Source: a virus. From it: a stretch of 37,628 bases of DNA. The position numbers were made by a program, and so were the translations under genes. Positions 319 through 37,628 of this stretch are shown piece after piece. The stretch's first letter is position 1. The number at the start of each line of letters is the position of its first letter. Below the pieces are notes generated by a model. The model made no database searches. It was not told the DNA's origin and worked only from the letters and a program-made list of their open reading frames with translations. Where the stretch lies: IMG/VR virus record IMGVR_UViG_3300035388_000009, positions 1 to 37,628 of that record; one strand, written 5' to 3'.

Positions 319-3300
319 TTAACGCTTGTTTTCTTTGTAATATTCTAATGCGTCATCCGCTAAATCAATTATTGATTTTCTGTAGTCTCTAATTAATCCT
401 TCTTTTTCTGCCACTGTGTAACCGCTGTTCTTTTCCGCTGCTCTTATCATATCCCAATACTTATTTATTCTACTGTAATTAAACTTGAATTTATTTTGAA
501 TTGATGGATTATAATCTTTGGTCTTAATTCCATCAGAATCATACACATTCTTAGCTTCATTTAACTTTTCCTTTATTTCATAGAAATCATTAATTGAATC
601 GTTGCTATAAATTGGGTCTGCTGTAATTCTATTCAGTAGAATTTTTTTAAGTGGATCTTCCGATGGTGTTGTCATTGGAAGAATAACATCACCTATGATT
701 CCTGTTAATTGGTCAATCATATAATCAATGTTCTTTGGTGATGAATAAACTCCCAAGGCATTAGGAATAACTTTTGCTACAGCAACAGCTAACCTGCTCG
801 TTTTGTCATCATACTGATAATCAACTGGTTTTGCAGCTAAGTTGTACGGAACTATTGGAGCGCCAGTCCATGACTTGTTCATTGCCACTTCTGCAATCGC
901 CCATCCTACAGGCTTAACAGGTGGTACAAATACATTCAAGAAAGTTTTATCCAGTTTTGCAAAGGGATCATCCTCTCCTGCAAAGTATCTAAACATCCTA
1001 TCTTCTAATGTAGAGAAAATAAAAGCAAGTTCCCTAGGTTTTGGTGTTCTCCAAAACATGTTTGTACCTGGTATCTTAATTAACCAGTAATTGTCTCTAA
1101 TGTTCTTGGCTATCTTCTTGTAATCGTCATCATCCCTATAATGCCAAGCAAGGGCCAATGTAGGTAAAGTCAGAGTTAAAATACCCTTGGTTATAGCTTC
1201 TTTCCTGGTTTCTTTATTCTGTGCCATTCTTCCCAATTTATCCAGTCCTTGAAGTCCTGCATTCAGAAAAGGTACAACCTGGGCTATTGGATAGTTCATT
1301 ATCAAGCCTTTTCTCAGGAAGTTAAGTGTTACATCTCCCGACTCATAAAGAGCTTCCATAGTTGCATCGTGATGACTCCAACCTTCTGCTATTTTCTTGT
1401 CATAAATCTTATAGAATTCAACCTGTCTTGGTGCAGACTCAATTGCATCGTTGAAGTGTTCAATGGCTTGTAGTACCTTGTGCATCTTGCCTTCTTTTTC
1501 AAAACCAAACTGACTCCTAACTTCTTTCATCATGTTCTTTTGGTTTCCAGACATACGAGTACCAAATCCACCGCCAACAGTTCTGTATTCTTGATTCTTT
1601 TCATCGTGCGTTATTACTGACTTAAAACTCTTACCGAGTCCATAAGCATACTTGACTGGATTGTTCTCATGGCCCTGGATAAATCCAGTTGGAATATCAC
1701 GAGGTAAGTTTGATAACAGTCCGAATATGATGTTCTTGGAGGTGATAACATTAGTAAACATTACCCTAAGTTTTATCAACGCCTTAAACACGCTGTCAAC
1801 CTGAACCGGCGACATTCCTGCCAATGCTTCATGCAGGAAGATATCATTAATCTTATAGAAATGGACCTTGTTGTCTCTATCGATAACTGTTAAAACTTCA
1901 CTGTCTTTACTATAACTACTTGCGGTAAACCATTCTATAGTATCGTCAACATATCTTTCCATTATGTCTATTGGTGAGTAGTCTCCATCGAGGAAATCTT
2001 CCAAGACTTCGTGTATCTCTGTATCTTCATCAAAGTTTTCAGTGATATAATCCTTAACACCATCCAGTATCTTGTCAACATTTTCCATATCAACACCTTC
2101 ACTCATTAGTTGCTCAGATACCTTTTTCTTAGTTCTCTCAGTTCCAAACAACAACGATGATAGGTGCTTGTCGGTTAGCTGCAGTCCATATGTCTTTGTG
2201 AAGTAATCGTTTAGGAATCCTATAGCCATAGATGTTTTCATTTCCCTGGCATCATAACTATGATATTCCATCGGTCTATTAATCTTGTGGTAAAACTCTC
2301 CAACACCGTCGGCTCCTTTCTGGTGAAGGTCGTGCATTGACAACATAACTTCTCGCTTAAGCTGTGCATCAACAATTTTGAACACCTGAGTAATCATGCT
2401 TTCTAATGGGTTGTACGTATTCATTCCATTACCTGATTGACTCAATCTGTTAATAGGAGCAGACTGGTTACCAATGCTACTTTTATTCCTAACTTTGATG
2501 AAGTCACCATTAGGACCTATTGTATAGCCTTCGTTTACTCTAAGCATAGGAACATAATGAGGATATTTTTCAAGCATCTTTTCCCAGGATTCCTTGCTTA
2601 TGAATCCGGTATCAACCATCCACGCCTTCATAAACTTGTTCCACCATTGGTATAATTCTTCTGCAGTTTCTTTAAACTCAGGATGAAGTTCTTCCATAGC
2701 TTCTACTTCTTCCTTTACCATATCTAATGTAAGTTGTGGTGAATACACCCTATGACCTATTCGCATAAGGTCGTAAGCATGTTTATTCTTAAGGTAGATG
2801 ACAAATTTTTCTTCGTTTTCAACAACGTCCTTCAATACATCGATGAAAGTTTTTCCATCTATTATGTTTGAATAAGGATCACTTAATCCTGTTTTAATAC
2901 CTGATTTAACTCCACCCAACATACCTGAAGCAATTGATTGTGCTTTTAATGTTCTTCCTGCCAATCCGGAAGGGTCGTTACTTGGCTTTAAACTTTCTCC
3001 GTTTATCTTTTCTGCAAACCTAGAAAGGTTCGCTAGTCCCAAGTTGCCCTCAAACAGAAGTGCATATAGTCTCATTTTAAGGTACTTGGCTTTATCTTTG
3101 AAATTTCTACCATCACTATTTTCTGTATGACTTACAATCGTACTACCGAACATCTCAGTTCTACTAGCTTTAGTGAAATCAGACATATCCTTTTGTGTTT
3201 TCTGCACTGCTTTCAAATCTGTCTTGTCAAGCAAACCTTCAAATATGTCATAAAACTGTGAACCGAAAGTTTCTGCAGCTTTAGGATCAACGATATACAT

Positions 3301-6300
3301 TTTAAAGAATTCTGCTATGGCTTCTCCTGGAAGCAAGTTCTCTTTATAGTTCTTCTTGAAATCATCCGGAAGATTATCAACCATTTCCTCAACTGCAACA
3401 TCGTTACTTTCCTGTAAATCATACTTACTATCCAGGTGATGGCCTATCTCGTGCATAACAACTTCAATGTCATTGTCAAACTTAATCCTTACAGTCTTTG
3501 GAACCAACTCATAATAGCCAGTTGCTTTCCTTTTCCTGAATCCTCTTGTATCAACAGGTAGTTTGAAGTGACTTGCAAGTTCTGAAATCATTCTGTTGAA
3601 ACTTTTAATTTTCTTCTTCTTGTCACCTGCAACAATCCCTTCTATAACACTGTGGAAAACAGACTTTCCAGAAGAACCATAGTTGTTTCTTATTTCGTCT
3701 TGTTTAACTTTTTCGCTGTTTCCAAGTTCCTTGTCCACTTGTTTGCTAGTGAACTTTGTTCTGATTGCGTCAATGTTCTTGAGCTTTTGGAGCTGCTTTG
3801 CTTCACCTTCTGTGAGTTCATTGATTGATTCATCTATCACACCTCTTTCTTTTAGTTCTGTTTCGAGTGCAGCCATGCCGAATTTTTCATTTAACATTGT
3901 CTTGGTATCTTCTGTCACATTAAGATTGTTTCCATTCTTTGATTGAGACAATGTGACAACATCAACAACTATACCACCGTTATCTTCAATGAACTTCTTC
4001 ATTTCATTAATGGTACTTCCCATGGTAAACACATCATCTGTTATGATATATTCTCTTCCAGGAACAACAAGGCCTGTGAATATCGGTTTATCTGCAATCC
4101 TTTCAATGGCACTCATTTTAGAATCTTTATGCGAGTTCTCTTTAATAATGTTCAAGTCAAGCTCAAGTCCTGAATACTTAGATACTGCATTAGAATAGGC
4201 TACTGGTATAGAATTATTAATGTTATCTGCATCTATAACAGGTGCGATGTAAGCGTGTGGATATTTGACTGCAAGCTGCTTCATGCTATCTTTGTCGATG
4301 TTTTGGTCCACAAGTCTTACGGCTGCGTTTAAATTGCCACTTCTAGCCTTCTCATAAGTTGCTACGTCCTTCTTGACCTCTGTAATATCCTTGCTTGAAT
4401 TGACAAGGTTGTTGAATGTGTTTGATTCTACTTTGTTGAATGAGTTTGTGTTGTCAACTTTTGAAGTCATTCCTTTGAAACCATATTTATCAACTAACTT
4501 CTGAGTAATGTCAACAGCCGTATTCGTAGGAATAAAATACCTTGCCCTATATTGTATCATTTCCTTGAATATACCCATTTTTTTCAAGTTGGCTTCGTGC
4601 TTATAAATATCATCCCCAATTAATTCAAGCCTATTTTCATTAGATACTCTTTTCTTTGTAACTCTCCATCCATTGCGTTTGAACATTAAAAAGTTACCTG
4701 TGTCCATAATATCTTGCAGAGCATCTTTGATGTTCACCTGTTCCTTTTGTGTATTGGTGCGGTTCTCGGTAACATCAACGTCCAAGGCTTTCAATGTAAG
4801 ATTAAGTTCCTTTTCTCTTACAACTCTACCTAGGAATTGTTCTCCGCTATCTGTGACAGTTCTCATGATCTTGAATTTAGAAGTAGGAAGTCTTTTCCAT
4901 ATCGGCAACAATGCACCTGTTATCATATGCACTTCTTTATACTTCATTTCAGGAACACTATTAAGGCCTTCTTTCCAAATCGACTCAGCTTTATCTTTGT
5001 CTTTGAGTTCCGACCAGTTTTCATTGGCCTCAAATTCTGTTTTCCCTGCGACGGTATTTTGATAATCAGCTTGCCCTTGGATTTTAATTCTTTCGACCTG
5101 GTTTCCGTTGCCATCTGTTTTTACAATGCCAGTTCTAAATACAGCTCTTACATTACCACTTATCTTATTAACATAAAAACCCATGAATTTCTTTTGCTCG
5201 TGGTCTATTTCTTCAAATGCTATTTTTTTCACAACGCTTCCTGTTTTAAGTTTTACATAATCAGTCGTTGCGTCCATTCCGGGATATGTCTTAGCAACAA
5301 TTTTACTTTCGACTTCAACGCTATCAGCTTTAAGGTTTTCCATTCCCTTGTCAAAAGTTCCGTCCTTCAAAGCTCTTTCTATAAAGGTGTCCATTCTGCT
5401 TTCAAACTCCTGGAACAATTTGTTTTGAAATGATACCGGTGTAGCAAGAACTCTATTCAAGAATTTTGATATTTTACGGAGATCATCTCCACTCTCTGGG
5501 ATGTTGCCGTTTTCATCTAACATATTAGACATTCCAAGTTTCTTGAAAGTTTCTTCTTTTTCAAACCCTGCAACCCTATCGTTCGCCAAATCTTTATATA
5601 ATTGATGCAAGGCATCTTTCGCATAGTCACTCTCGATATTATCAGTTGCGTTAAATACACCAGTGCTTCCAGTTTGTCTTTGTCCTTTTGTCAAAGCTCC
5701 TAATTGGTCAAGTCTCTTTGCTATTGTTGAAATGAATCTTTTCTCTCCCGCAATGTTTGTAGTTACAAGAAGATAATAAGGAGGTATTCTCTCAAAACTT
5801 CTATGAGTACGTCCAAATCCTTGAATCGCATCATCGGCAGAATAACCACCTTCCATTAATATATGGACTCTTTTTTCTTGGTTTTTGAACTTCAAACTAG
5901 CATGAAAACTAAACCCTGTTCCTCCGGCTTTTGTAAATAGCAAAATTCTTTTTCTACCGCTATTGAATTGGTCAGCATCATTCTTACTTGCATTCTTCCC
6001 ACGTTTACGGAGTTCTCTTTTTTTATTACCATATTCATCAACTACACTTACGACTTGTCTCTTTCTTCCAGATACTTCGGCAATGTTTTCATAACCCAAT
6101 TCATCGTACAACATTGTCAATGGATCTTCTGGGACAGGTAGTGTTGCTAAATCTTCTATTAGTTTATCTCTTCTTGCTACCGATTCTGGATTAACAACAT
6201 CATTTCCTTTACTATCTTTGACAGGTTGCATTCTGATATTTCCGTGTTCATCCTCGATTGGTTCGTATTGAGTTACCGGGAATGATTTTTCAAGATAGTT

Positions 6301-9300
6301 TATCAACATATCTCTTGGAGATAAGTCTAAATCATCAAGATCCATTCCTTCGTATGCTTTTGCTATCTTCCTATTTGTAGAAGCTTCAAAGGTTCCTATT
6401 GTTTGTAGGACAACTGAGTTCCCTTTTTCTAACTGTTCTTTAGCTTCGGCTATAATAGTAGGCATTTTAAATGAAGTTACTATCTGATTAAAGAATCTTT
6501 GATTGTATCCCCAGAAAGCAGACAAAGCACTTGATTTCTGTGAACTTCCACCCTCTGTTTCCTCAATCGCTGCATATACATTATCAAGCACAATTCCCCA
6601 AGCTTCGGCCATTTTGTCATAAACTTTATTTTGTGTATTGGTCAATTTATGTTCTTTTCTTCCGTATTGAACACCATCATAACTTAAAGCCCTGGCAATA
6701 TACACACCCATAGCCTTCATATCTCTAGCAACAAGTTCCATTGCAGGTATGCCACCTTTTTCAAGTTCTTCTATGAATTCATGGACAGTTTCAAAGTTTG
6801 TATCTCCACCCCATAACCCTAGTCTTTGCGCATATCCAAGGTTGCTTACTTCTGTAGCTCCGGTTGCAGATACATACACAATCCTAGCTTTTGGGAATAA
6901 CTCATTTAAAATAAGTCCAGTTCCACCTATGTCAGAAGCTTTGGTTTTCCCTCTTGTACCTTTTGGCGGTACTGCTGTTTTCATTTTATGCGCTTCATCA
7001 AATGCTATTACACCATCATAGTCTGGTCCCAACCAATCATAGAGCTGTTTTATTCTGTTTCTTTCAGCGAACTGAGGATTAGAATATTTTCCTTCTTCTA
7101 AAGAAACTTCTTTCTTGTATTGGTCGGATAAAGTTCCGTAAGTGGTAAGAAGTACACCTTCTGTTTCTGTTATTTTAGTACCTTTTTTATTATCACTTAT
7201 TTTTATGACATTGGATGGATAATTAAGATCGTTCAAATCCCTTGCTGCATCATCGAAAAGTCCCTGATTAGGAGTTATCCAAACAGCTTTCTTTCTACCT
7301 TTGGCAAAGTTGTCAAGAATTATGCCTGTGATTTCTCTACCTTTACCAACTCCTGTACCGTCACCTATGAAGAATCCTTTTCTGATTCCATCTTTTAACA
7401 TTTGCAAGTGAGCTTGTCCGGCATAAACGATAGCTTCTAATTGTGGCAAAGATAATGCCCCGGTCTTGATAAGTTTTTTATCAATAGACGGAGCATAAGT
7501 TACATCTGGTGGATCAACCGCACTCATGGCCGCACTTTCTGCAAGTACAGATGGATGGTCTTTCGCACCTTCGATTTTCAATTTTACCGGAACATAGTTT
7601 TCAAATATGGACTCTGTTAAATCCTTGCTACTTGTTTTTTTATTCTTCTTTTTCTTGTTAGTGGTTTTTATTTCAGATTCTTTTCCCACCACTCCTTTTC
7701 CCTTGGTAGCATTTCCAGATCTTCCATCTGATTTAGTAGGTGACTTGTCAATAGTTCCGTCATTTCTTCCTTGGTCTTGCACATCTGCAGCTCTTCCATC
7801 GTCAACGCCATTTCCTCGTTGTCCGGTCTCAGAAATACTGCCATCGTTTTTTCTGGAACCCACATTGCTTCCATTTCTTCCATTATCGGAATCATCTGTT
7901 TTTCCGTTGCTGATTCCATCACTATTTGCAGAAGTGGAACCGCTCTCCAAATCATTTCTCCCCTGAACATCTTCATTGCTTCCAGATTCATTGGGTGATC
8001 CATTACCTTCATTAATCTTTTGTGCATCGTTAGTTGGTATTCTTCTTTCATCTCTTATTCCCCCTAAATCATCTATCAGTTTGTTAAGATTTTGATAAGT
8101 ACCTGTCTTGGTCCTTTCGGTTGTTGGTCCTATTTTATCTATGACAATTAATTGAATATCATATTGAGTACCATACTTCTTATAATTCTTACCATCAACA
8201 GTTACATTGGCTTTTACATCATACTCTGCCTTGATTTCTTTCCACCAGGCATAGAATGACTTTTTCTGTTCTGCCATTCCGTTTCCAGTAAGAACTATCA
8301 ATCTTCCGTTTGGCTCTAACCTTTTAAGAGCTTGTTCAATATGTTTCTTGGCATTTGCGGTCGCATTCTTGCTCATACGAGTTGTAGCACTAAAAGGTGG
8401 GTTCATAACAACCACACTAGGTTTAACATCTGCAGGAAGAATATTATTAATCTGCTCTGCATTTTCAGTGAAGTATCTATCAAAAGGCAATTGATGGAGA
8501 ACTTCATTCCTTCTATCACTTATCTCGTTCACATAAACCTCTGCCCCTGCTTTCTTGCCCCATATAGCAAGACTACCAGTTCCGGCACTTGGTTCAAGGA
8601 CCTTATCATTAGTTGTAATATTTGCAAGCCAGTTTACCACATATGCTATATTTGGTGGTGTTGAGAATTGTTGCAGCTTAACCATATCGTCTGTTCTCTT
8701 GGTCTGAGTAGGGATTTTATCAAGCATAAACTCAATATGTTGAAGGACCAGTTTGGCATCGTCTATGTTGGAAGTGAATTCATAACCGCCAAATTCAAGT
8801 ATGTATTGATTAACCGCAAGCTCCATAGCATCGTATAGATCCTTAATGTTATAAACATTATCGCTCATTGTACCACCGAATATATCGTTAGCACTCTTGT
8901 AAAGATTTGATATATTTACTTTCTCTTTAGCTCTAAGTTTTTCAAGAACAATATCTGCTAATTGTTGATATTTATTAACATCCTTAGAGGATTCTTCCTT
9001 CTGGGGTTTAACTCCCATCAACTCATAATCATCAATATCCTTGTCGCTCAATTCCTTGTCATACTCAACATAACCCCATGCTTCACGACCTATCTCGTCA
9101 ACAAACTGTCTCTGGTCAAAAGCTACTACCTTAGTAGTCCCTTTAGGATGTGTACCCATTGAAGGTGGTCTTTGAGTTAAGTAGTATTTATGAGGACCTT
9201 TCTTTGCTTCAATTATATCACTTTCTGAATCTGTATTCAAATTAGCATCAGCCTTCTCTTCTTTCTTAACTTCTTTTTTATCCTTGGCCGCCTTATCCTT

Positions 9301-12300
9301 TTTCCCCGCCTTGTAGATTTCATCCAGTACAAATGGTGGGAATTCAATTTCTAACTCGCCTTGCTCCATAGTGGTATATATTCTTTCTCCACTCAAACCT
9401 CGGTCATAATACTTATTGAATAGTTTAATCCAGTTTTGGGTGTACTCACTTTCCAAGTTGTTGATGTCTGCATTTATATATTCATTGCCAGACCATTTCT
9501 TGAATGCTGCATTACCAGCTCTCCCGAACTTGGTGTTGAGTTCTTCTGTTTCTTTTTTAGTTTCAGTAAGTTCCTTAACCTTGTTAGTTTCTTCTACTTG
9601 TCCGCTTGTGACTTCGACAATAGCATTTACAACATCGTCAATCTGTTTCATCAACGGTTTTAAACTCTTGCCAAATGGTGAATTTTCGTTATCGTTAGCC
9701 AGTGATACCGCATAATCATATTCTCCCCACAACTCAGAGGGAGCATCTGTACCTTGAATAAAATCATTATACAAGTCTTTATGGATATTGACTTTGTTTT
9801 GTTCTCCCCAAACGATACTAGATTTTTGCGTTTTCAACATTCTTCTTAAGGAATTTTCAACAACTCGTCTGCCCACAATCCATTCGTTTGAATCTTCTTC
9901 AAATGTAAGCTTACCTAAGATTGTATTTACAAGTTCGTCGTTTTCATTACGCTCAAATTCATCTCTGAAATCCACAAGGGAATCCATTTTAGACTGTTCT
10001 TCGGGTTCTAACTCACTATTGATAAGCTTATCAACAAACTCTTTTTCACCATATTTCTCAGAAAGTTCATCTTCAAAATCATCAATAGAATTTTGTGCAT
10101 CTTGATAGGAAGTGTATGGATTTTCTTTTGCTTTGGGTTCTGGAAGTTCTTTCGCCCCTTCGTTCTCGGTCTTAGAGGTCGATTCTTCTTTATTTGTCTC
10201 CTTTGAATAATCCGATATAGCAAGGTCCGCTACTGCTATCTTCTGCTTCAAATCATCAGTTACAAGGCCGTCAAGTGCCAACACCCCTTGATTACCTAGC
10301 TTCATAATTGATTTATTTTCCCTACCATTAGTCATCCAGTAAACCAATTTGCCACGATAAATTTCCCTGGTTAATAAAAGTTCTTCATATGTTTGTTCAG
10401 AAAAATGTTTATCGGTTCCAAGTTTTCCAGTCTGCTTGAAATCAACATCATTAAGCCTTATTGCTAAATCAGCTACCCTTTCATCATCACCTCTCCAAAC
10501 AAGGTCTACGGCTTCATATGTGTGCCCAACTTCTGGAACAACATTAACACCTCTTAAGTTTTCTGGGATGTAAAGCTTAGTGCCAGAATACTGAGCATAA
10601 CCATTTTGTCTTAATACACTTTTTATAAGAGAGTGTGGATTGCCGTCAAACTTGAGTTCAAACCCATTTCCTTTTTTAGTCTTTGTAACTTTCGCATCAT
10701 TTATAGAGTTCTTTGTTATTTTCTTGAAAGCGTTAATGACCTTACTTCCTTCTTCAACCATCTTGTCAAAGAGTTCTTTTGCTTTTGTTTTACCTTCCTC
10801 TTTTTTAGCAAGATATTTCTCATCGTTCTCAAACTCTGTCACAGAATTTTCTTCTGGTCTTGCATCAATCTCTTCTTGCACTTTTTTAGCAATTAAATCA
10901 TCTAGCTCGTCAATTCTTTTGTTTGTTTCTGCAATGTTTTCTTTATCTCTGACCACCGTATAATTAATAAGATCTTTCAGTAATTCTTTTCTTTCTGCAT
11001 CAAGTTCATCTAAAGTAGAAGTTTCGTCTACTTTCGTGGTATTTTTTTTATTAAGTATATCTAACCGAGCGTCAATATGCTTGATCATCTTATCAATATA
11101 AGCTAATTTATCAGGGTTTGCAGTTTCCTTGTCTTTTAGAAGTTCTTTCCTTTTTACTTTAAGGCTTTCTACTGTATAGTCGCCTAATTCGTTTTCAATC
11201 CCACTAGCAATTGAATCATCAAGGCTTTCAAGCTCGGAAGATGTTTCTCCAAGTTTTTCGTGATTATTTTGCTTTTGGTGTTTTTCTAGCTTTTTAACAA
11301 GTTTTTCTCTTTCAGAAACAAGAGTGTCCACTGTTTTAGTATTTGTCTCTTTAGCTTTAACATCCGCAACCTTCTTGCCAGTCATCTTCTCAAACAACTT
11401 CCTACCGATTTCAAGCTCTGCGCCACCAGAAGTTTTAACCTTAACCTTGGAAGGGTCCGTATCGTCAACAACCTGTATGTCTCCGTATTTTTTAGTGTTG
11501 ATCCAACCTTCTGCGGCTTTCTTCTCTGTTTCTTCCTCTACAGTAGCTTCTTCTATAACTGCACTCGCTGTTTCAGAAAGTTCAAGAGCTTCTTGTTTCC
11601 TTTTCTTTTCAGCATTATTTATTGCAGTTTCAATCTCTGGGCTAGTTTCAACCTTCTTATTATCGACAACCATATCATCAAGAGACTTAAGGATTCCTTC
11701 AAATAAGTAGATATCCTTCTTATAGGTTTCTGCCTTGCTTTCATCGGCTTTGAATTCATCTATAATAAGTTGTCCTGCTTCCTGCATTTCAATCAATTCA
11801 TCACTAATGAGGTTTATATCATTATCTCTAACGACATCGTGGATCTCTCTTCCATAGCTTGTAAGCTGCGAAACATTGACCTTATCAATTCCATCAAGTG
11901 CAATAGTTTCTATATTCTTCACATCTGTCTTTTTTGCAACTTCTTGCAATTGTATTATGAATTCTTTATTTGCATCCGTTCCAATGTTTCCTGGTAGAAC
12001 TGAATTAACAGCTAGAACCTCACTGATATTCTTGGTGAGTTCTCCTTCTGTTTTCTTAATTTTATAATCCTTATTAAGAGTAGATCCAGTTTGCATTACA
12101 TTACCAGGACCAACTATTATAGGCATAGCCTTCAAAGTTTGAACCGCTGTTTGAAGAAGTCTGTTTCCATGTTCTGCAGTTAATATTTTGGCTTCATTGC
12201 CTGATATTTTTTGTGCAGTGATTTCACCAGTCATAGTAACTACTTCCTGTGCAACCTCTTCACCAACTTCGGAAGCTATATCCTTGGAATATTCTTTCAA

Positions 12301-13548
12301 GCCAGACAATATAGTTTTCCCTGTATTGTTTCTGATATACTTCTGAGCTATTTCTTCTGCTCCTTCATTGAGTCCTGTTCTTAGCAGTTTCCCAACTACT
12401 GGCATTTTCTTCATAATAGTTCCCAACTGTACAACTTCTATTCCTGCATTGGCAAGTCCTACATAATTTGCAATAGTCGATGCAAGTTCGGGATCAATAC
12501 CTTGTTCAATCATATCTGCATATGCAAAACCACTCTCTACCTCATAACTGGTCATTGCAGAACCCATAGTTGAACCAATCTTGAAACCTGCTGCAGCTGC
12601 TCCCGGAACCGTATATATTTCCTCCGGTGTCATAACCTGGGGTCCCATTTGTCCAATTGTACCTGCTGCAGTACCGAAACCTATGGCCCCTGCTAGACCT
12701 TTTTCAAATCCACTCTTGGTAGTTTCTGCCATGAAAGGAAGCATCTCAGCCGTAGCAAGTCCCATCTGTCCCAAAAGCCCTACATCTTCCTGGTCGAATA
12801 TCTCAGGGTGGAGCTGTGCATAAGCTTCAACCTGGGCTTTTATCTCTACCATGCTGTTATCCTGTCCGTTCATTGCCTTGTTAGCTTCTCGGGCATAGGA
12901 TATATTCAATCTATTAAAAGCATAAGAATTTTTCAGTTTATCTGCATAAGAAATCTCTGCATTATATGCCATAGCTGCATTTTTAAAAGCAGGAGAAGCG
13001 TCTTGATGTTCTTCTATATTAACTTTAGAAGTATCTACCCCAGTAAAAGCATCATATCCGGCATAACTTGCATCTGATACGGCTTGTTCGTTGTTGACTG
13101 TTGGCTGCTGTTGTTCAGCTGCTTTTTGAACATTGGTCTGTCCGTACTTCTGCATTATAGCATCTGATAAAGACGGCCCATCTCCACCTGTATTAACGCT
13201 GCTTATTCCCGCTAAGCCTTTGTCTATGTCATATTTAGGTCTTTCGCCTGATTCACTAGCACTTCCAAGTTCTATACCAGAAACTTTATCCTTAATAGAA
13301 CCTGCTACATTCGACACTGTATCTTTAAACTTGTCTAAAAAACCGGCAGGTTCCTCAACCGCCGGTTTTGGTGTTGCATATTTTTCATAGCCTTGTGGAA
13401 GGTCTACATTGTATGTTTCGCAATAATCAACAAGGGCATCAAGTCCCTTTTGCGTAACCTTGGAACCAGACTTCTCAACGTGTCCTGTCCTGATTGCACT
13501 CAAGACTTGTGATCCTGGATGATTATTATAATTATATTCCGTACTCAT
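319..13548 (-). CDS. giant polyvalent protein: methyltransferase, DarB-like helicase, PRTase and peptidase motifs (4409 aa)
   Basis: Unbroken 4409-residue frame, last gene of the late cluster, with a GGTGG ribosome site before ATG. Visible in order: Gly/Ala-rich hydrophobic stretch (about 265-335); long charged coiled-coil region (about 650-1000); conserved antirestriction-type module with YYLTQRPPSMGTHPKG (about 1447-1510); N6-adenine methyltransferase with EPSAGTG (about 1652) and NPPF (1716-1719); Gly/Asn/Ser/Asp-rich linker (about 1836-1970); superfamily 2 helicase with Walker A GDGTGVGKG (2062-2070), FDEAH (2183-2187) and QGFGRTHR (2576-2583), like P1 DarB/strawberry-notch; phosphoribosyltransferase-like IITDDVFTMGST (about 3168); zinc-peptidase HEIGH (3366-3370); C-terminal region (about 3850-4200) resembling the large polyvalent-protein-associated domains. 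Proteins of this architecture are known in phages and conjugative elements and are thought to enter the host with the DNA and protect it. Virion packaging is inferred from position behind the tail genes and another predicted internal protein. Domain names rest on motifs, not on a search. Confidence 0.85.
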   Translation of the reverse strand: MSTEYNYNNHPGSQVLSAIRTGHVEKSGSKVTQKGLDALVDYCETYNVDLPQGYEKYATPKPAVEEPAGFLDKFKDTVSNVAGSIKDKVSGIELGSASESGERPKYDIDKGLAGISSVNTGGDGPSLSDAIMQKYGQTNVQKAAEQQQPTVNNEQAVSDASYAGYDAFTGVDTSKVNIEEHQDASPAFKNAAMAYNAEISYADKLKNSYAFNRLNISYAREANKAMNGQDNSMVEIKAQVEAYAQLHPEIFDQEDVGLLGQMGLATAEMLPFMAETTKSGFEKGLAGAIGFGTAAGTIGQMGPQVMTPEEIYTVPGAAAAGFKIGSTMGSAMTSYEVESGFAYADMIEQGIDPELASTIANYVGLANAGIEVVQLGTIMKKMPVVGKLLRTGLNEGAEEIAQKYIRNNTGKTILSGLKEYSKDIASEVGEEVAQEVVTMTGEITAQKISGNEAKILTAEHGNRLLQTAVQTLKAMPIIVGPGNVMQTGSTLNKDYKIKKTEGELTKNISEVLAVNSVLPGNIGTDANKEFIIQLQEVAKKTDVKNIETIALDGIDKVNVSQLTSYGREIHDVVRDNDINLISDELIEMQEAGQLIIDEFKADESKAETYKKDIYLFEGILKSLDDMVVDNKKVETSPEIETAINNAEKKRKQEALELSETASAVIEEATVEEETEKKAAEGWINTKKYGDIQVVDDTDPSKVKVKTSGGAELEIGRKLFEKMTGKKVADVKAKETNTKTVDTLVSEREKLVKKLEKHQKQNNHEKLGETSSELESLDDSIASGIENELGDYTVESLKVKRKELLKDKETANPDKLAYIDKMIKHIDARLDILNKKNTTKVDETSTLDELDAERKELLKDLINYTVVRDKENIAETNKRIDELDDLIAKKVQEEIDARPEENSVTEFENDEKYLAKKEEGKTKAKELFDKMVEEGSKVINAFKKITKNSINDAKVTKTKKGNGFELKFDGNPHSLIKSVLRQNGYAQYSGTKLYIPENLRGVNVVPEVGHTYEAVDLVWRGDDERVADLAIRLNDVDFKQTGKLGTDKHFSEQTYEELLLTREIYRGKLVYWMTNGRENKSIMKLGNQGVLALDGLVTDDLKQKIAVADLAISDYSKETNKEESTSKTENEGAKELPEPKAKENPYTSYQDAQNSIDDFEDELSEKYGEKEFVDKLINSELEPEEQSKMDSLVDFRDEFERNENDELVNTILGKLTFEEDSNEWIVGRRVVENSLRRMLKTQKSSIVWGEQNKVNIHKDLYNDFIQGTDAPSELWGEYDYAVSLANDNENSPFGKSLKPLMKQIDDVVNAIVEVTSGQVEETNKVKELTETKKETEELNTKFGRAGNAAFKKWSGNEYINADINNLESEYTQNWIKLFNKYYDRGLSGERIYTTMEQGELEIEFPPFVLDEIYKAGKKDKAAKDKKEVKKEEKADANLNTDSESDIIEAKKGPHKYYLTQRPPSMGTHPKGTTKVVAFDQRQFVDEIGREAWGYVEYDKELSDKDIDDYELMGVKPQKEESSKDVNKYQQLADIVLEKLRAKEKVNISNLYKSANDIFGGTMSDNVYNIKDLYDAMELAVNQYILEFGGYEFTSNIDDAKLVLQHIEFMLDKIPTQTKRTDDMVKLQQFSTPPNIAYVVNWLANITTNDKVLEPSAGTGSLAIWGKKAGAEVYVNEISDRRNEVLHQLPFDRYFTENAEQINNILPADVKPSVVVMNPPFSATTRMSKNATANAKKHIEQALKRLEPNGRLIVLTGNGMAEQKKSFYAWWKEIKAEYDVKANVTVDGKNYKKYGTQYDIQLIVIDKIGPTTERTKTGTYQNLNKLIDDLGGIRDERRIPTNDAQKINEGNGSPNESGSNEDVQGRNDLESGSTSANSDGISNGKTDDSDNGRNGSNVGSRKNDGSISETGQRGNGVDDGRAADVQDQGRNDGTIDKSPTKSDGRSGNATKGKGVVGKESEIKTTNKKKKNKKTSSKDLTESIFENYVPVKLKIEGAKDHPSVLAESAAMSAVDPPDVTYAPSIDKKLIKTGALSLPQLEAIVYAGQAHLQMLKDGIRKGFFIGDGTGVGKGREITGIILDNFAKGRKKAVWITPNQGLFDDAARDLNDLNYPSNVIKISDNKKGTKITETEGVLLTTYGTLSDQYKKEVSLEEGKYSNPQFAERNRIKQLYDWLGPDYDGVIAFDEAHKMKTAVPPKGTRGKTKASDIGGTGLILNELFPKARIVYVSATGATEVSNLGYAQRLGLWGGDTNFETVHEFIEELEKGGIPAMELVARDMKAMGVYIARALSYDGVQYGRKEHKLTNTQNKVYDKMAEAWGIVLDNVYAAIEETEGGSSQKSSALSAFWGYNQRFFNQIVTSFKMPTIIAEAKEQLEKGNSVVLQTIGTFEASTNRKIAKAYEGMDLDDLDLSPRDMLINYLEKSFPVTQYEPIEDEHGNIRMQPVKDSKGNDVVNPESVARRDKLIEDLATLPVPEDPLTMLYDELGYENIAEVSGRKRQVVSVVDEYGNKKRELRKRGKNASKNDADQFNSGRKRILLFTKAGGTGFSFHASLKFKNQEKRVHILMEGGYSADDAIQGFGRTHRSFERIPPYYLLVTTNIAGEKRFISTIAKRLDQLGALTKGQRQTGSTGVFNATDNIESDYAKDALHQLYKDLANDRVAGFEKEETFKKLGMSNMLDENGNIPESGDDLRKISKFLNRVLATPVSFQNKLFQEFESRMDTFIERALKDGTFDKGMENLKADSVEVESKIVAKTYPGMDATTDYVKLKTGSVVKKIAFEEIDHEQKKFMGFYVNKISGNVRAVFRTGIVKTDGNGNQVERIKIQGQADYQNTVAGKTEFEANENWSELKDKDKAESIWKEGLNSVPEMKYKEVHMITGALLPIWKRLPTSKFKIMRTVTDSGEQFLGRVVREKELNLTLKALDVDVTENRTNTQKEQVNIKDALQDIMDTGNFLMFKRNGWRVTKKRVSNENRLELIGDDIYKHEANLKKMGIFKEMIQYRARYFIPTNTAVDITQKLVDKYGFKGMTSKVDNTNSFNKVESNTFNNLVNSSKDITEVKKDVATYEKARSGNLNAAVRLVDQNIDKDSMKQLAVKYPHAYIAPVIDADNINNSIPVAYSNAVSKYSGLELDLNIIKENSHKDSKMSAIERIADKPIFTGLVVPGREYIITDDVFTMGSTINEMKKFIEDNGGIVVDVVTLSQSKNGNNLNVTEDTKTMLNEKFGMAALETELKERGVIDESINELTEGEAKQLQKLKNIDAIRTKFTSKQVDKELGNSEKVKQDEIRNNYGSSGKSVFHSVIEGIVAGDKKKKIKSFNRMISELASHFKLPVDTRGFRKRKATGYYELVPKTVRIKFDNDIEVVMHEIGHHLDSKYDLQESNDVAVEEMVDNLPDDFKKNYKENLLPGEAIAEFFKMYIVDPKAAETFGSQFYDIFEGLLDKTDLKAVQKTQKDMSDFTKASRTEMFGSTIVSHTENSDGRNFKDKAKYLKMRLYALLFEGNLGLANLSRFAEKINGESLKPSNDPSGLAGRTLKAQSIASGMLGGVKSGIKTGLSDPYSNIIDGKTFIDVLKDVVENEEKFVIYLKNKHAYDLMRIGHRVYSPQLTLDMVKEEVEAMEELHPEFKETAEELYQWWNKFMKAWMVDTGFISKESWEKMLEKYPHYVPMLRVNEGYTIGPNGDFIKVRNKSSIGNQSAPINRLSQSGNGMNTYNPLESMITQVFKIVDAQLKREVMLSMHDLHQKGADGVGEFYHKINRPMEYHSYDAREMKTSMAIGFLNDYFTKTYGLQLTDKHLSSLLFGTERTKKKVSEQLMSEGVDMENVDKILDGVKDYITENFDEDTEIHEVLEDFLDGDYSPIDIMERYVDDTIEWFTASSYSKDSEVLTVIDRDNKVHFYKINDIFLHEALAGMSPVQVDSVFKALIKLRVMFTNVITSKNIIFGLLSNLPRDIPTGFIQGHENNPVKYAYGLGKSFKSVITHDEKNQEYRTVGGGFGTRMSGNQKNMMKEVRSQFGFEKEGKMHKVLQAIEHFNDAIESAPRQVEFYKIYDKKIAEGWSHHDATMEALYESGDVTLNFLRKGLIMNYPIAQVVPFLNAGLQGLDKLGRMAQNKETRKEAITKGILTLTLPTLALAWHYRDDDDYKKIAKNIRDNYWLIKIPGTNMFWRTPKPRELAFIFSTLEDRMFRYFAGEDDPFAKLDKTFLNVFVPPVKPVGWAIAEVAMNKSWTGAPIVPYNLAAKPVDYQYDDKTSRLAVAVAKVIPNALGVYSSPKNIDYMIDQLTGIIGDVILPMTTPSEDPLKKILLNRITADPIYSNDSINDFYEIKEKLNEAKNVYDSDGIKTKDYNPSIQNKFKFNYSRINKYWDMIRAAEKNSGYTVAEKEGLIRDYRKSIIDLADDALEYYKENKR

Positions 13549-15046: not shown

Positions 15047-15408
15047 TACCACACCACTCCTTTATCTGCAAGTATCTGGATTAACTCATCGACAACCCCT
15101 TCCAACTCTTGTTTATCCAACTCCAACCTCTCGATTTTCTGTCTTTCTGTTTCAGGAGGTGTTTCCAATTCTTTCTCCCTAGCTTTCTGTATCCAACTTT
15201 CGTAATTCGACTGCAGGCTTTCCATGAGATTGGGTCTTCCTTTTATCCCGTCAAGCCTATAATAGTCATACTCGTATTTCATAGTTTCCCCTTCGTCCGT
15301 TAGAGGAACTTCCATTACATTCTCAAAAAACTCAATATCAACCTTGTTATCAGGTTTTAGAGTCAATTCATATGGCGCAATTGGCATTACTGTACTTTCT
15401 GCTTTCAT
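15046..15408 (-). CDS. tail-accessory protein, possible assembly chaperone (120 aa)
   Basis: 120 residues. There is a clear ribosome site (AGAGGTGAT) and the first 41 nt overlap the 3' end of the reverse transcriptase gene. The N-terminal half is beta-like with many acidic residues; the C-terminal third (from about residue 85, ETERQKIERLELDKQELE) is a coiled coil ending in ILADKGVVW. Coiled-coil C-termini of this kind are common in small proteins next to tail-fibre genes in Gram-positive phages. I considered the DGR accessory protein Avd because of size and position, but Avd is a basic four-helix bundle and this is not. Role inferred. Confidence 0.5.
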   Translation of the reverse strand: MKAESTVMPIAPYELTLKPDNKVDIEFFENVMEVPLTDEGETMKYEYDYYRLDGIKGRPNLMESLQSNYESWIQKAREKELETPPETERQKIERLELDKQELEGVVDELIQILADKGVVW

Positions 15409-16576
15409 TACTGATCACCTCTTTTATTTTTTTGAAATTAATTTTATCTTTAATGTGTTTGTTGTAAAAATTAAAGGAATTGCTGTGCCGTAGCCACCCG
15501 GCCCTCGATATGAAAGACCTAGCCATTCTGACCGATAGTTTCTTGGACTTGAATATTTTAGCTGCCTGCCTTTTTAAGGTTAACGCAATACGCTTCCTGA
15601 GAATTATCTTGTCTCTAAAGAACCTAAAGCCAAGGAAATCTATGTCCCTGCCTCTTCGATTTCCATTCTTGTCGAAATAGTCGAACCTGAACACCTGCCA
15701 GTTGTCTTTTAACTTTAATTCCATGCTTTTTAGATAATCCCCTATGCTATCGACCGCTTTGTGCAATGACTTCTTGTTTGGACCAAAGAAAACCATATCA
15801 TCCATATATCTCACATAGTGTTTAATGTGCAACTTCTCTTTGATTAGATGGTCCAGTGGTGTTAAATGGAAATTGCAAAACCATTGACTAGTCGAATACC
15901 CTATTGGCAACCCATGTTTAATTCCATTTACATCCCCATCGAAATAACTGTCGATAACCGAATCAGTTAACCAAAGGAATAACTTTCCCCTGAACTTCTT
16001 TCTAAGTTGTCCTTTCAAACTCTCGTGAGATATACTAGGATAACATTTCTTAATATCTAACTTTGCCACATACTTTATTTCCGACTTGTCGTTCTTTGAG
16101 TGCCTATCGATAGTCTTCTTTATGCACCTCATACCTTTGTGAATGCCACCTCCGGGCATACTTCCACAACTGTACTCATACATGCTTTTCATCATTACAG
16201 GCTTTGCCACCGCAATAATTAACTGATGGATTATCTGGTCAGGGTAAAGAGGTACGCTCGTTATGGTTCTTGATTTCCTACTGGACCCATCTTTGATCTC
16301 AAAAGACTCGCACTTTCTTGGGCTATAAGCCATCTTGTTTATGTCGCTTGGTACTTCGATTCCCTGTTCTTCCATTGCTGCTTTAATCTCAAAACTCTCC
16401 ATCAAGTCAAGGACCCTATCAGTGTACTCATCTACATGTTGTAAAATATACTGGGCCTCTTTGTATTTTCTATTTGTTCCAGCGTTTTTCTTTCTTTTGC
16501 TTTTGCAGGTTTTAATTATGGCCTGCACAATCATTTTTCTGTCTTTTAATTTATCGTCTACATTGTATGATTTCAT
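15368..16576 (-). CDS. diversity-generating retroelement reverse transcriptase (402 aa)
   Basis: Copies the TR RNA with errors at adenines so that the cDNA can replace the VR in the tail-protein gene. Reverse transcriptase landmarks: LDIKKCYPSI (about 173-182, catalytic Asp174), GLPIGYSTSQ (222-231) and RYMDD (256-260, Asp259-Asp260). The IGxxxSQ form of motif 4 is the established signature separating DGR enzymes from group II intron and retron enzymes (usually QGxxxSP). There is no maturase or endonuclease domain, and length fits DGR enzymes. The start ATG overlaps the stop of the open frame through TR (ATGA) and has a weak ribosome site of its own, so expression may depend on coupling or on low-level initiation. 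Order target-VR, TR, RT matches known DGRs. Confidence 0.95.
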   Translation of the reverse strand: MKSYNVDDKLKDRKMIVQAIIKTCKSKRKKNAGTNRKYKEAQYILQHVDEYTDRVLDLMESFEIKAAMEEQGIEVPSDINKMAYSPRKCESFEIKDGSSRKSRTITSVPLYPDQIIHQLIIAVAKPVMMKSMYEYSCGSMPGGGIHKGMRCIKKTIDRHSKNDKSEIKYVAKLDIKKCYPSISHESLKGQLRKKFRGKLFLWLTDSVIDSYFDGDVNGIKHGLPIGYSTSQWFCNFHLTPLDHLIKEKLHIKHYVRYMDDMVFFGPNKKSLHKAVDSIGDYLKSMELKLKDNWQVFRFDYFDKNGNRRGRDIDFLGFRFFRDKIILRKRIALTLKRQAAKIFKSKKLSVRMARSFISRAGWLRHSNSFNFYNKHIKDKINFKKIKEVISNESRKYSNANCAI

Positions 16577-16732
16577 TCGGTCTTTATGTCTCCACTTTCG
16601 GTCTTTTTTATAGTCTCAGGGGCTTTGAGCATGTTATCCATCTTACTAACCCCTGCCGTTGCGACAATTTCTGCCAAGGGGCAAGGAAAAGAACAGGCGT
16701 AAAATATTATTGTCTTTGTCATCACTATAAAT

Positions 16733-16845
16733 AGGCGCGCAAGGCGATTGATGTTCGAGTTCGACGGATGAATGTTGCAGTTGAAGTAAACAGGCGAACA
16801 ATTACGCCCATTGTTCCAGTTGCCGCCGACGAAGACCACGCACAC
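16733..16845 (-). ncRNA. DGR template repeat (TR)
   Basis: Pairs with the VR at a constant offset of 208 nt and no gaps. Across these 113 bp there are 15 differences, and at all 15 the coding-strand base in TR is adenine; no G, C or T of TR differs. Allowing three more adenine mismatches, the match can be stretched to 16726-16846. The TR reads in the same frame as VR with many AAY codons (e.g. GGNWNNGRN), the usual design that lets adenine mutagenesis reach most amino acids without making stops. The GC-rich CGCCTTGCGCGCC at its 3' end is shared with VR and fits the initiation-of-mutagenic-homing element. Transcript ends cannot be read from sequence. Confidence 0.95.
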
Positions 16846-16897
16846 TGCCTGTCCAGTCCCTGTAAATATTTTCATGAAACTATTTAACTTATCTTAT

Positions 16898-16910
16898 GGG
16901 TGTTGCACCC
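16898..16910 (-). other. hairpin downstream of VR
   Basis: Inverted repeat GGGTG-CAA-CACCC about 12 nt beyond the target gene's stop and about 31 nt beyond the VR, flanked by G-runs on the minus strand. In Bordetella phage BPP-1, a DNA hairpin/cruciform just after VR promotes retrohoming. This short stem sits in the equivalent region but is smaller and farther away, so the role is inferred. It lacks a U-run and is not a good terminator. Confidence 0.4.
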
Positions 16911-16921
16911 CCAAACCCCCG

Positions 16922-18361
16922 CTAATCACGGCTTACAAAAAGGCGCGCAAGGCGAAAGAAGTCCGAGTGCGACGGAGGAAGGCTGCAGCTGAAGTAAACA
17001 GGCGAACAAGTACGCCCAGCGGTCCAGCAGCCGCCGACGAAGACCACGCACACATCGTATCGAGGGTAGTAGTAGTATCCAGATAGATAAGTAGTTGACG
17101 AAGCACCTATGACATCAGTTAATCCCACTATCGGGTTGCCTCCATCTTGACCTAAGCTAGTTGCGTATCCATCACTGGTAGGCAAGATGAAGTCAAGAAC
17201 TTCATAATCTCCTGTTATTACCCCTGCCGCATAATTCCTTGGGTCATTAATGAGGTAAGGTGTATATGTATAGTTGCCTTCCGTTCCGCTTCTTTGTATG
17301 AGTATGTCACAAAGTCCGGAGTAGGCGTTGGCCCAGGGGTCTACCTTGCCTCTCCATTTGCAAGGGTACTTACCACTGGTATTGTCTCCAGGAGAGCCAG
17401 ATGATGCAACAACTATGTCCGTAGCTCCGTTTATCCATGCTCTCGATGACAGAAAATAACCTATCGAGATGTCTTTGGCATCACCCGAAAAAGATATTGC
17501 CTTGTTGCTTGCGTCGTAGTCATTAATGGCCGTGATTTGCACATTGTTTGCAATGTCGCTGCCGTTTTGAGTAGTCCCTATGACAATAGTCTGTCCGACA
17601 ACATATTTTCCTGCTATAGCGTTAGCTACTACGACTCTGTTGACCCCTGTTTCGGCCGCGGTAACTAAATCACTTGAGCCGTTATATGAAAGGCTGCTTG
17701 CTCCCATCATTACTGTCTGCAGGTCTTTTGTCGCAAATTCTACAAGCTGTAGTACGTATTCGCACATATGCACCACGAGTGTTTCAGTATGAGCATTGGA
17801 GTTATATGTCCTTGCTGCATCCACCCCAGTGTTTGCCGAGTAATTGCCCGGTATGGTTCCTGTCCTGGATGTAGCTTTACCATCCACCGTTGCCATCCAA
17901 TAAGATGGCAAGTAGACCTTGTCATAACCATTCTTGAACATAGGTGCGAGTTCTAGTTCGTCTAGGTCATATGCCGATACTATCGGTTCTTCGAAGCTCT
18001 TGTTCCAGTAGAACGGCGTGCACTCATAGAACACTTCTCCGTTGGATCCATCTCTCTTGAAGTCCGGGTCCCCATCATACGCAAGTACAGTAGGTTCTCC
18101 CGTTGTTGCATCAAACTCCACATTGCACTCGGATCTGTCGAATATGTTTATGTCATCGAAGTTGTTGACCACTGCTTCGCCATCCACTGCAACATTGGCT
18201 GAAAGTCCTACCGCATCATAGATTCTGGTACCAATAGGATTGGAGCCAGAGAATGTGACGCCGTACTTGTTTAATTTGCTTTCAAGAGCTGTAACTCTGC
18301 CTTCTACTCTGCCGAACCTTTTAGGCGATTTCATCGCTAATAATCTTGCTAGTCCATCCAA
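16922..18361 (-). CDS. DGR target: C-type-lectin-like tail tip/receptor-binding protein (479 aa)
   Basis: Predicted receptor-binding tail protein whose C-terminus is rewritten by the DGR. The start is TTG, directly after the upstream stop and 6 nt behind GGAGGTGG. The N-terminal region (1-35) is a short helix (VEGRVTALESKLNKYG) likely to trimerise or attach to the tail; the middle is beta-rich with YECTPFYWNKSF and YLPSYWMA. The C-terminal domain (about 330-479) ends in a CLec-type pattern, VCVVFVGGxWxxGRxC...RLARLF. VR covers residues 437-474. Comparison with TR marks 12 diversified residues: 445, 447, 448, 451, 458, 460, 461, 462, 465, 467, 468 and 469, mostly Asn in TR. CLec assignment is by pattern and by the known preference of DGRs for this fold. 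Confidence 0.9.
   Translation of the reverse strand: MDGLARLLAMKSPKRFGRVEGRVTALESKLNKYGVTFSGSNPIGTRIYDAVGLSANVAVDGEAVVNNFDDINIFDRSECNVEFDATTGEPTVLAYDGDPDFKRDGSNGEVFYECTPFYWNKSFEEPIVSAYDLDELELAPMFKNGYDKVYLPSYWMATVDGKATSRTGTIPGNYSANTGVDAARTYNSNAHTETLVVHMCEYVLQLVEFATKDLQTVMMGASSLSYNGSSDLVTAAETGVNRVVVANAIAGKYVVGQTIVIGTTQNGSDIANNVQITAINDYDASNKAISFSGDAKDISIGYFLSSRAWINGATDIVVASSGSPGDNTSGKYPCKWRGKVDPWANAYSGLCDILIQRSGTEGNYTYTPYLINDPRNYAAGVITGDYEVLDFILPTSDGYATSLGQDGGNPIVGLTDVIGASSTTYLSGYYYYPRYDVCVVFVGGCWTAGRTCSPVYFSCSLPPSHSDFFRLARLFVSRD
16941..17053 (-). repeat. DGR variable repeat (VR)
   Basis: The 113-bp recipient of TR-derived sequence inside the 3' end of the tail-protein gene. Codon changes relative to TR include AAC to TGC, AAT to GCT, AAT to TTT, CAT to CCT and ATC to TTC: 15 nucleotide and 12 amino-acid changes, all nonsynonymous, all from template A. 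The last 15 bp on the coding strand (3' side) are nearly identical in the two copies, as expected at the homing-initiation end. Confidence 0.95.
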
Positions 18362-37506: not shown

Positions 37507-37628
37507 ATCGAGTAGCTAGAAAGTTGGTAATCAAACCAACTTTCTTTGCTCTCACAGAACCGGACTTACGTTTGCCGTATCCGGCTCCTGAAATTTCTCT
37601 CCGAATTAATAATAGTTCGACAATAACC
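37507..37628 (-). mobile_element. group II intron, 3' end only (domains V and VI)
   Basis: The minus strand shows domain V at 37587-37557: outer stem GAGCCGGAT with GTCCGGTTC, containing the catalytic AGC triad, a two-base AA bulge and an inner stem capped by GCAAA (31 nt against the usual 34, so its upper stem is shortened). Domain VI follows: GAGAG...GAAAGTTGGT pairs with ACCAACTTTC...CTACTC, with a single bulged adenine at 37513, seven bases from the predicted 3' end GAT (AY-type). The rest of the intron and any maturase gene would lie to the right of the window. Host gene or site cannot be seen. Confidence 0.72.

Follow-up and report, generated by a model that had tools for sequence, protein, structure and literature searches.

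Organization of the retroelement

The stretch of DNA analysed here, hereafter the window, is the 37,628-nucleotide viral record IMGVR_UViG_3300035388_000009 of IMG/VR (positions 1 to 37,628). Positions 15368-18361 of its minus strand almost certainly hold a diversity-generating retroelement (DGR), laid out as a target gene ending in a variable repeat (VR), a template repeat (TR), an RT-18 structured RNA, and a reverse transcriptase (RT). The DGR itself is an ordinary example of an already known kind. Less ordinary is the short purine-rich element that directly follows VR and, in relatives, tends to be built as a mirror repeat. The features are as follows.

16922..18361, minus strand: target gene, CLec-type tail protein of 479 aa, TTG start (ATG at residue 10); assigned from its structural model, a TaqVP fold match, and phrog_5302 (tail protein)
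16934..17053, minus strand: VR; 17 of the 25 TR adenines changed, otherwise identical to TR
16941..16954, minus strand: GC-rich 3′ end of VR (CGCCTTGCGCGCCT) resembling an initiation of mutagenic homing (IMH) site; no adenine, same in TR
16916..16920, minus strand: R1, first purine tract GGGGG, proposed third strand (from conservation and mirror symmetry in relatives)
16913..16915, minus strand: linker TTT between the purine tracts
16908..16912, minus strand: R2, second purine tract GGGGG, 5′ arm of the target hairpin
16903..16907, minus strand: hairpin loop TGCAA
16898..16902, minus strand: Y, pyrimidine arm CACCC, imperfect (A for C); the best stem slides to GGGTG:CACCC
16726..16845, minus strand: TR; mismatches to VR at TR adenines only
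16603..16683, minus strand: RT-18 RNA (RF03021), taken here to be the 3′ portion of the template RNA of the DGR; 58.6 bits, gathering cut-off 41.3
15368..16576, minus strand: DGR RT, 402 aa; PF00078, phrog_1423, IGYSTSQ and YMDD

An earlier note on this DNA had aligned TR (16733-16845) with VR (16941-17053) over 113 bp without gaps and counted 15 differences, each of them at an adenine of the TR coding strand and together changing 12 amino acids. These figures are reproduced from the sequence. This part of TR holds 22 adenines, and the probability that 15 random mismatches would all fall on 22 of 113 positions is 9e-14. The adenine-only match reaches further, to 120 bp (16726-16845 and 16934-17053), with 17 of 17 differences at the 25 adenines of TR; the additional 7 bp contribute one silent and one Ile-to-Val change. 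Past adenine-specific mutagenic homing, as the note had proposed, is thus well supported. An IMH role for 16941-16954 is suggested by analogy with BPP-1. A 100-aa, ATG-started open reading frame (16573-16875, minus strand) spans TR, and its stop overlaps the start codon of RT. It was set aside as a gene, its sole family match being the VR domain and the related locus L013 having a different, non-overlapping frame there; it is probably a by-product of TR copying a coding frame.

RT matches Pfam RVT_1 (E = 1.6e-18) and the PHROG reverse transcriptase family (E = 1.7e-80), and it carries both parts of the DGR-type pattern [IVL]GxxxSQ and YxDD. Among solved proteins, the closest relative is the RT in entries 8ub7-8ube, which we take to be the BPP-1 enzyme. 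RT-18 most likely belongs to the template RNA of the DGR, given its position between TR and RT, in the window and in those relatives where TR was found, and the outcome of a wider search. This search, of 391 Clostridia and 399 Bacilli genomes, returned four RT-18 loci besides the two seeds, all four in Clostridia and with TR/VR pairs; all four also carry paired purine tracts, an out-of-sample occurrence. The Rfam entry as retrieved names no DGR, and the link is made here from position. BPP-1 has the Rfam Phage_DGR RNA in the same place. Rfam RT-4 or RT-17 RNAs lie between TR and RT in L006, L007, L041, L042, and L010, and by position these families look like DGR template RNAs too. The folding stability of the TR-RT spacer RNA in the window is no greater than expected (z 0.26).

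A profile search of the window for Avd (PF05635) gave no match, nor did the control genomes give any, and Avd is likely absent from this DGR. Avd is common in DGRs without being universal, about a quarter of them lacking it (PMC7290462). The description of the DGR as complete holds for the Avd-less kind.

The target protein is predicted with a mean pLDDT of 93.8 when 58 relatives are supplied and a pLDDT of 28 with only four sequences. The only significant solved fold match is TaqVP, the DGR variable protein of Thermus aquaticus (5vf4; E = 7e-8), and the match is partial, with 12% identity and TM-scores of 0.38/0.46. Many viral matches of the protein are annotated as tail collar fibre proteins. 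The confident model and the TaqVP match support the earlier suggestion of a CLec-like target, and VR lies at the 3′ end of the gene. Variation by the DGR of the C-terminal tip of a CLec-type tail protein is the best explanation of these observations.

Active tropism switching, also claimed in the earlier note, does not follow from these data. A receptor-binding role is only inferred, and the target hairpin of the window is mismatched in its pyrimidine arm relative to the close relatives L103 and L105, in which Y is an intact CCCCC. No second VR allele of the window's own phage was found. The loci L003 and L004, which come from two samples, have identical TRs and VRs that differ at 20 of 26 TR-adenine positions and at 0 of 76 others; the zero is largely built in, since loci were chosen by adenine-only extension, and is not independent proof. 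The comparison indirectly suggests that DGR activity is visible in relatives of the window phage.

A mirror purine element after the variable repeat

In the window, the sequence GGGGG-TTT-GGGGG-TGCAA-CACCC runs from 16920 down to 16898 on the minus strand, one base past the stop of the target gene. It stands where BPP-1 has its target hairpin, in a different form. BPP-1-type target hairpins have a GC-rich stem of 7-10 bp and a 4-nt GRNA loop after VR (PMC3240598), whereas the window can form a 5-bp stem with a CAA loop, or GGGGG/CACCC with the TGCAA loop.

The wider occurrence of the element was surveyed in 162 non-redundant DGR loci gathered through relatives of the RT, with uneven sampling. 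Most relatives of the window RT share the same design after VR, namely R1, a short linker, R2, a loop, and a Y tract complementary to R2. Butyrivibrio phage Arawn, whose laboratory host is DSM 3071, has a relative of the RT, a TR-like repeat, and the element. A purine-arm hairpin follows VR at 96 of the 162 loci and follows TR at 2, with about 2 in shuffled sequence.

In tracts with an interior A, R1 usually repeats R2 in mirror order. Examples are AGGGAGG-TTT-GGAGGGA (L024), AGAGGG-TTT-GGGAGA (L138 and L214), AGGGGAGG-AAC-GGAGGGGA (L139), GAGGGGG-AAC-GGGGGAG (L137), AGAGGGG-TTCTAA-GGGGAGA (L158), and AGAGGGA-TTATA-AGGGAGA (L038). Among the 16 short-linker elements with an interior A, mirror symmetry scores above direct repetition in 11, ties in 5, and never loses; the observed sum exceeds that of all 3000 permutations. 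All 26 loci with an interior A in R2 also have one in R1. A variant of the test with rigid spacing separates the two arrangements poorly (290 of 342 for mirror and 271 for direct, each exceeding permutations), since the stem may take in bases of the linker. Viral contigs were scanned for one mirror string and for a direct-repeat control string, and the control occurred in none of them. The mirror string occurred in four, comprising two DGRs that were part of the set and two contigs that share one sequence and show no visible DGR. The latter two, L357 (position 5874, reverse strand) and L358, hold the mirror element GGGAGG-TTT-GGAGGG-CTT-CCCTCC.

Several loci depart from the simple arrangement. 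Two tandem elements of differing sequence follow VR in L137, L139, L274, and L275, and both are mirror-like in L137 and L139. An extra hairpin, often preceded by TGAA, stands between R1 and R2 in L148, L176, L319, L335, and L342, with R1 kept. A relative of the target gene (58% identity) in L014 (7280-7385) and L015 is followed by the intact element AAGGGGG-TTT-GGGGGAA-CC-TTCCCCC, and its contig, 35 kb long, yielded no RT. The gene that comes next in L014 is similar to the one after RT in the window, as though the TR-RT cassette were absent. The public record of Lactobacillus phage LBR48 (L184, around 518-545) passes from inside the target gene directly into the pyrimidine arm CTTTCCCCCGGG. 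Compared with L240 and L243, it is missing VR and both G tracts, perhaps through a failure of sequencing or assembly at the element.

Evidence for and against a triplex

The signature of a purine-motif intrastrand triplex is a pair of mirror purine tracts with a complementary pyrimidine tract. The mirrored A of R1 and R2 favours a triplex since a triple helix needs the mirror and a plain hairpin does not. Loci were scanned under the rule of PMC4666352 for stem, loop, and mismatches (stems of at least 6; within 100 nt after VR), with R1 additionally required to be at least half G. Class I motifs were found on the sense strand after VR at 40 of the 162 loci, against 0.05 in dinucleotide shuffles; none was found after TR, none on the antisense strand, and class II occurred once. 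A relaxed scan (stem of at least 5, longer loops) found 75 of the 162 loci, against 0.15 in shuffles. The class I motifs cluster on one side of the RT tree, a FastTree tree (74 of 131 rows there and 1 of 30 on the other side). DNA folding of the hairpin is unremarkable in the window, L013, and L003, and better in L006 (z -2.5). As folding programs do not score triplets, the signal of the element rests on covariation.

A number of observations weigh against a triplex. The element of the window itself fails the strict class I rule, its stem being 5 with one mismatch and its Y arm CACCC. When unique interior-A pairs with any linker length are taken (n = 27), mirror outscores direct in 15 and ties in 9, and direct outscores mirror in 3; 8 of the 75 loci without an interior A in R2 have one in R1. 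The core type changes 9 times on the RT tree, and phylogenetically independent pairs mostly fall 5 or 6 to 0 in favour of an interior A shared by R1 and R2; the corrected test is only marginal (median p 0.03 over all elements, 0.06 when limited to short linkers). Pairing of one or two bases of the linker with those past Y is frequent and may compete with the triplex. In L165 (255-326), a second VR with 13 adenine changes is followed by neither a hairpin nor a purine element. The E. coli triplex motif showed no protection from DMS in vivo (PMC4666352), and a plain hairpin serves for homing in BPP-1, which means that DGRs do not generally require a triplex.

Alternative readings

The element could be only the known DGR target hairpin or cruciform formed by R2 and Y, with R1 a G-rich neighbour of another role, for example a protein-binding tract, that resembles R2 through a shared purine bias. 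Such a plain hairpin is what BPP-1 uses (PMC3240598), the pairing of linker bases would lengthen the stem, and the phylogenetically independent test has few pairs. A purine bias nevertheless leaves the mirror register of the interior A unexplained, both in the permutations and in the co-occurrence of A in R1 and R2, and the tandem elements of L137 and L139 differ in sequence while both being mirrored. We consider this explanation unlikely, although it deserves serious attention. Alternatively, R1 could be a second copy of the 5′ arm of the hairpin that competes for Y through slipped Watson-Crick pairing. When both tracts are all G, R1 and R2 do not differ and could exchange partners in this way, but slippage needs direct repeats, which never outscore the mirror in the short-linker elements with interior A, and the direct-repeat control string is absent from all the viral contigs scanned, four of which yielded the mirror string; this explanation is highly improbable.

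A role in RNA, as a transcription terminator of the target gene or as a point on the 5′ side of the TR RNA where RT stops, would fit the position of the element between VR and TR, where a read-through transcript would carry it. The element adjoins VR, however, even where TR is about 690 nt away (L034) or where TR and RT are absent (L014), Y is mostly not followed by a T run (mean 2 T in 8 nt), and RNA is reported not to form triplexes of the purine motif (PMC4666352). We give such a role slightly less credence still. The G tracts might also form a G-quadruplex, as the E. coli triplex sequence could in principle do (PMC4666352), but each element has only two G tracts, and neither its complementary pyrimidine arm nor its mirror-placed A is called for by a quadruplex, which we find scarcely credible here.

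Set beside these readings, the mirror purine element is well supported as a sequence pattern and is very probably real and under selection. Support for a triplex is moderate, and judging from base patterns we lean toward such folding with some caution. The account as a whole up to that point, an Avd-less DGR with a mirror element that folds as a triplex, is one that we regard as reasonably probable.

A proposed role in target opening

By inference from other DGRs, RT would copy the TR RNA, misreading A, and the antisense cDNA so made would replace VR. When the sense strand is single-stranded, R2 would pair with Y, and R1 would fold back antiparallel to R2 as the third strand of a purine-motif triplex (G.G:C and A.A:T). 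The antisense cDNA would have to pair with the sense strand, and the triplex would sit just 3′ of VR on that strand. The lagging-strand polymerase would thus meet the triplex before VR, its synthesis would be stopped or delayed, and VR would stay single-stranded and open for annealing of the cDNA. One intrastrand triplex of the purine motif, from E. coli and likewise with a 3-nt linker, has been shown to fold in vitro, and triplexes of the purine type can arrest polymerases (PMC4666352). Homing in BPP-1 is best with the sense strand as the lagging-strand template, and the stem-loop was suggested by the authors to prolong the open state (PMC12875486). A replication-roadblock role for the element is conceivable, though we stop a little short of favouring it. 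That a whole branch of phage DGRs marks VR with a sense-strand intrastrand DNA triplex, whose strand-specific blocking of replication opens VR to the cDNA, is more tentative again.

Comparison with known systems

The DGR of Bordetella phage BPP-1 (NC_005357; L182) resembles that of the window in having a target gene with VR, TR, RT, a structured RNA between TR and RT, and a GC-rich hairpin after VR. It differs in having Avd and a plain 8-bp hairpin with a GAAA loop and no R1, whereas in the window no Avd was found and R1 is present. The R2:Y pairing corresponds to the BPP-1 target hairpin, and R1 is not described in that paper (PMC3240598). The crAssphage LMMB DGR shares the order target gene-VR-TR-RT, the lack of avd, and a tail-collar fibre target; it belongs to another phage group, and its description mentions no hairpin or purine tract after VR (PMC7290462). 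The intrastrand triplex motifs known as BoxC or PIT elements have, like the DGR element, two mirror purine tracts 3 nt apart and a complementary pyrimidine tract on one strand (PMC4666352). The E. coli motif is of class II (Y-R-R), intergenic, not seen in phages, and of no known function (PMC4666352), whereas the DGR element is of class I (R-R-Y) and stands at VR ends. In the part of the literature searched, nothing relevant ties triplexes, H-DNA, or mirror repeats to DGRs, and a mirror R1 purine tract beside the DGR target hairpin is not described.

Genomic context

Around the DGR lie genes for a holin, an amidase, a P22-type portal, an SU10-type adaptor, a major head protein, and a terminase. 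The earlier placement of the DGR in a podovirus-like late region is reasonable given the portal, adaptor, and terminase. Elsewhere in the window, a single polyvalent protein of 4409 aa (319-13548, minus strand) has DarA_C, methyltransferase, Strawberry-notch-type helicase, and LPD38 domains. A Rfam group II intron match to the domain V-VI region (37518-37589, minus strand; 40.9 bits, cut-off 40) lies at the right end of the contig, which thus seems to break inside such an intron.

Significance

By position, the Rfam family RT-18 can be assigned to likely DGR template RNAs, and the same reasoning extends to RT-4 and RT-17. Of the DNA signals known outside VR, the hairpin that follows it is the main one, and the route of DGR cDNA into the target is still unknown according to a 2026 study (PMC12875486). 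That a purine tract keeps mirroring the hairpin arm over evolutionary time offers a testable structural hypothesis for cDNA entry. If the triplex proposal is true, bacterial intrastrand-triplex repeats, which are without an agreed function, would gain a defined role, and a missing step in how DGRs enter their target would be supplied.

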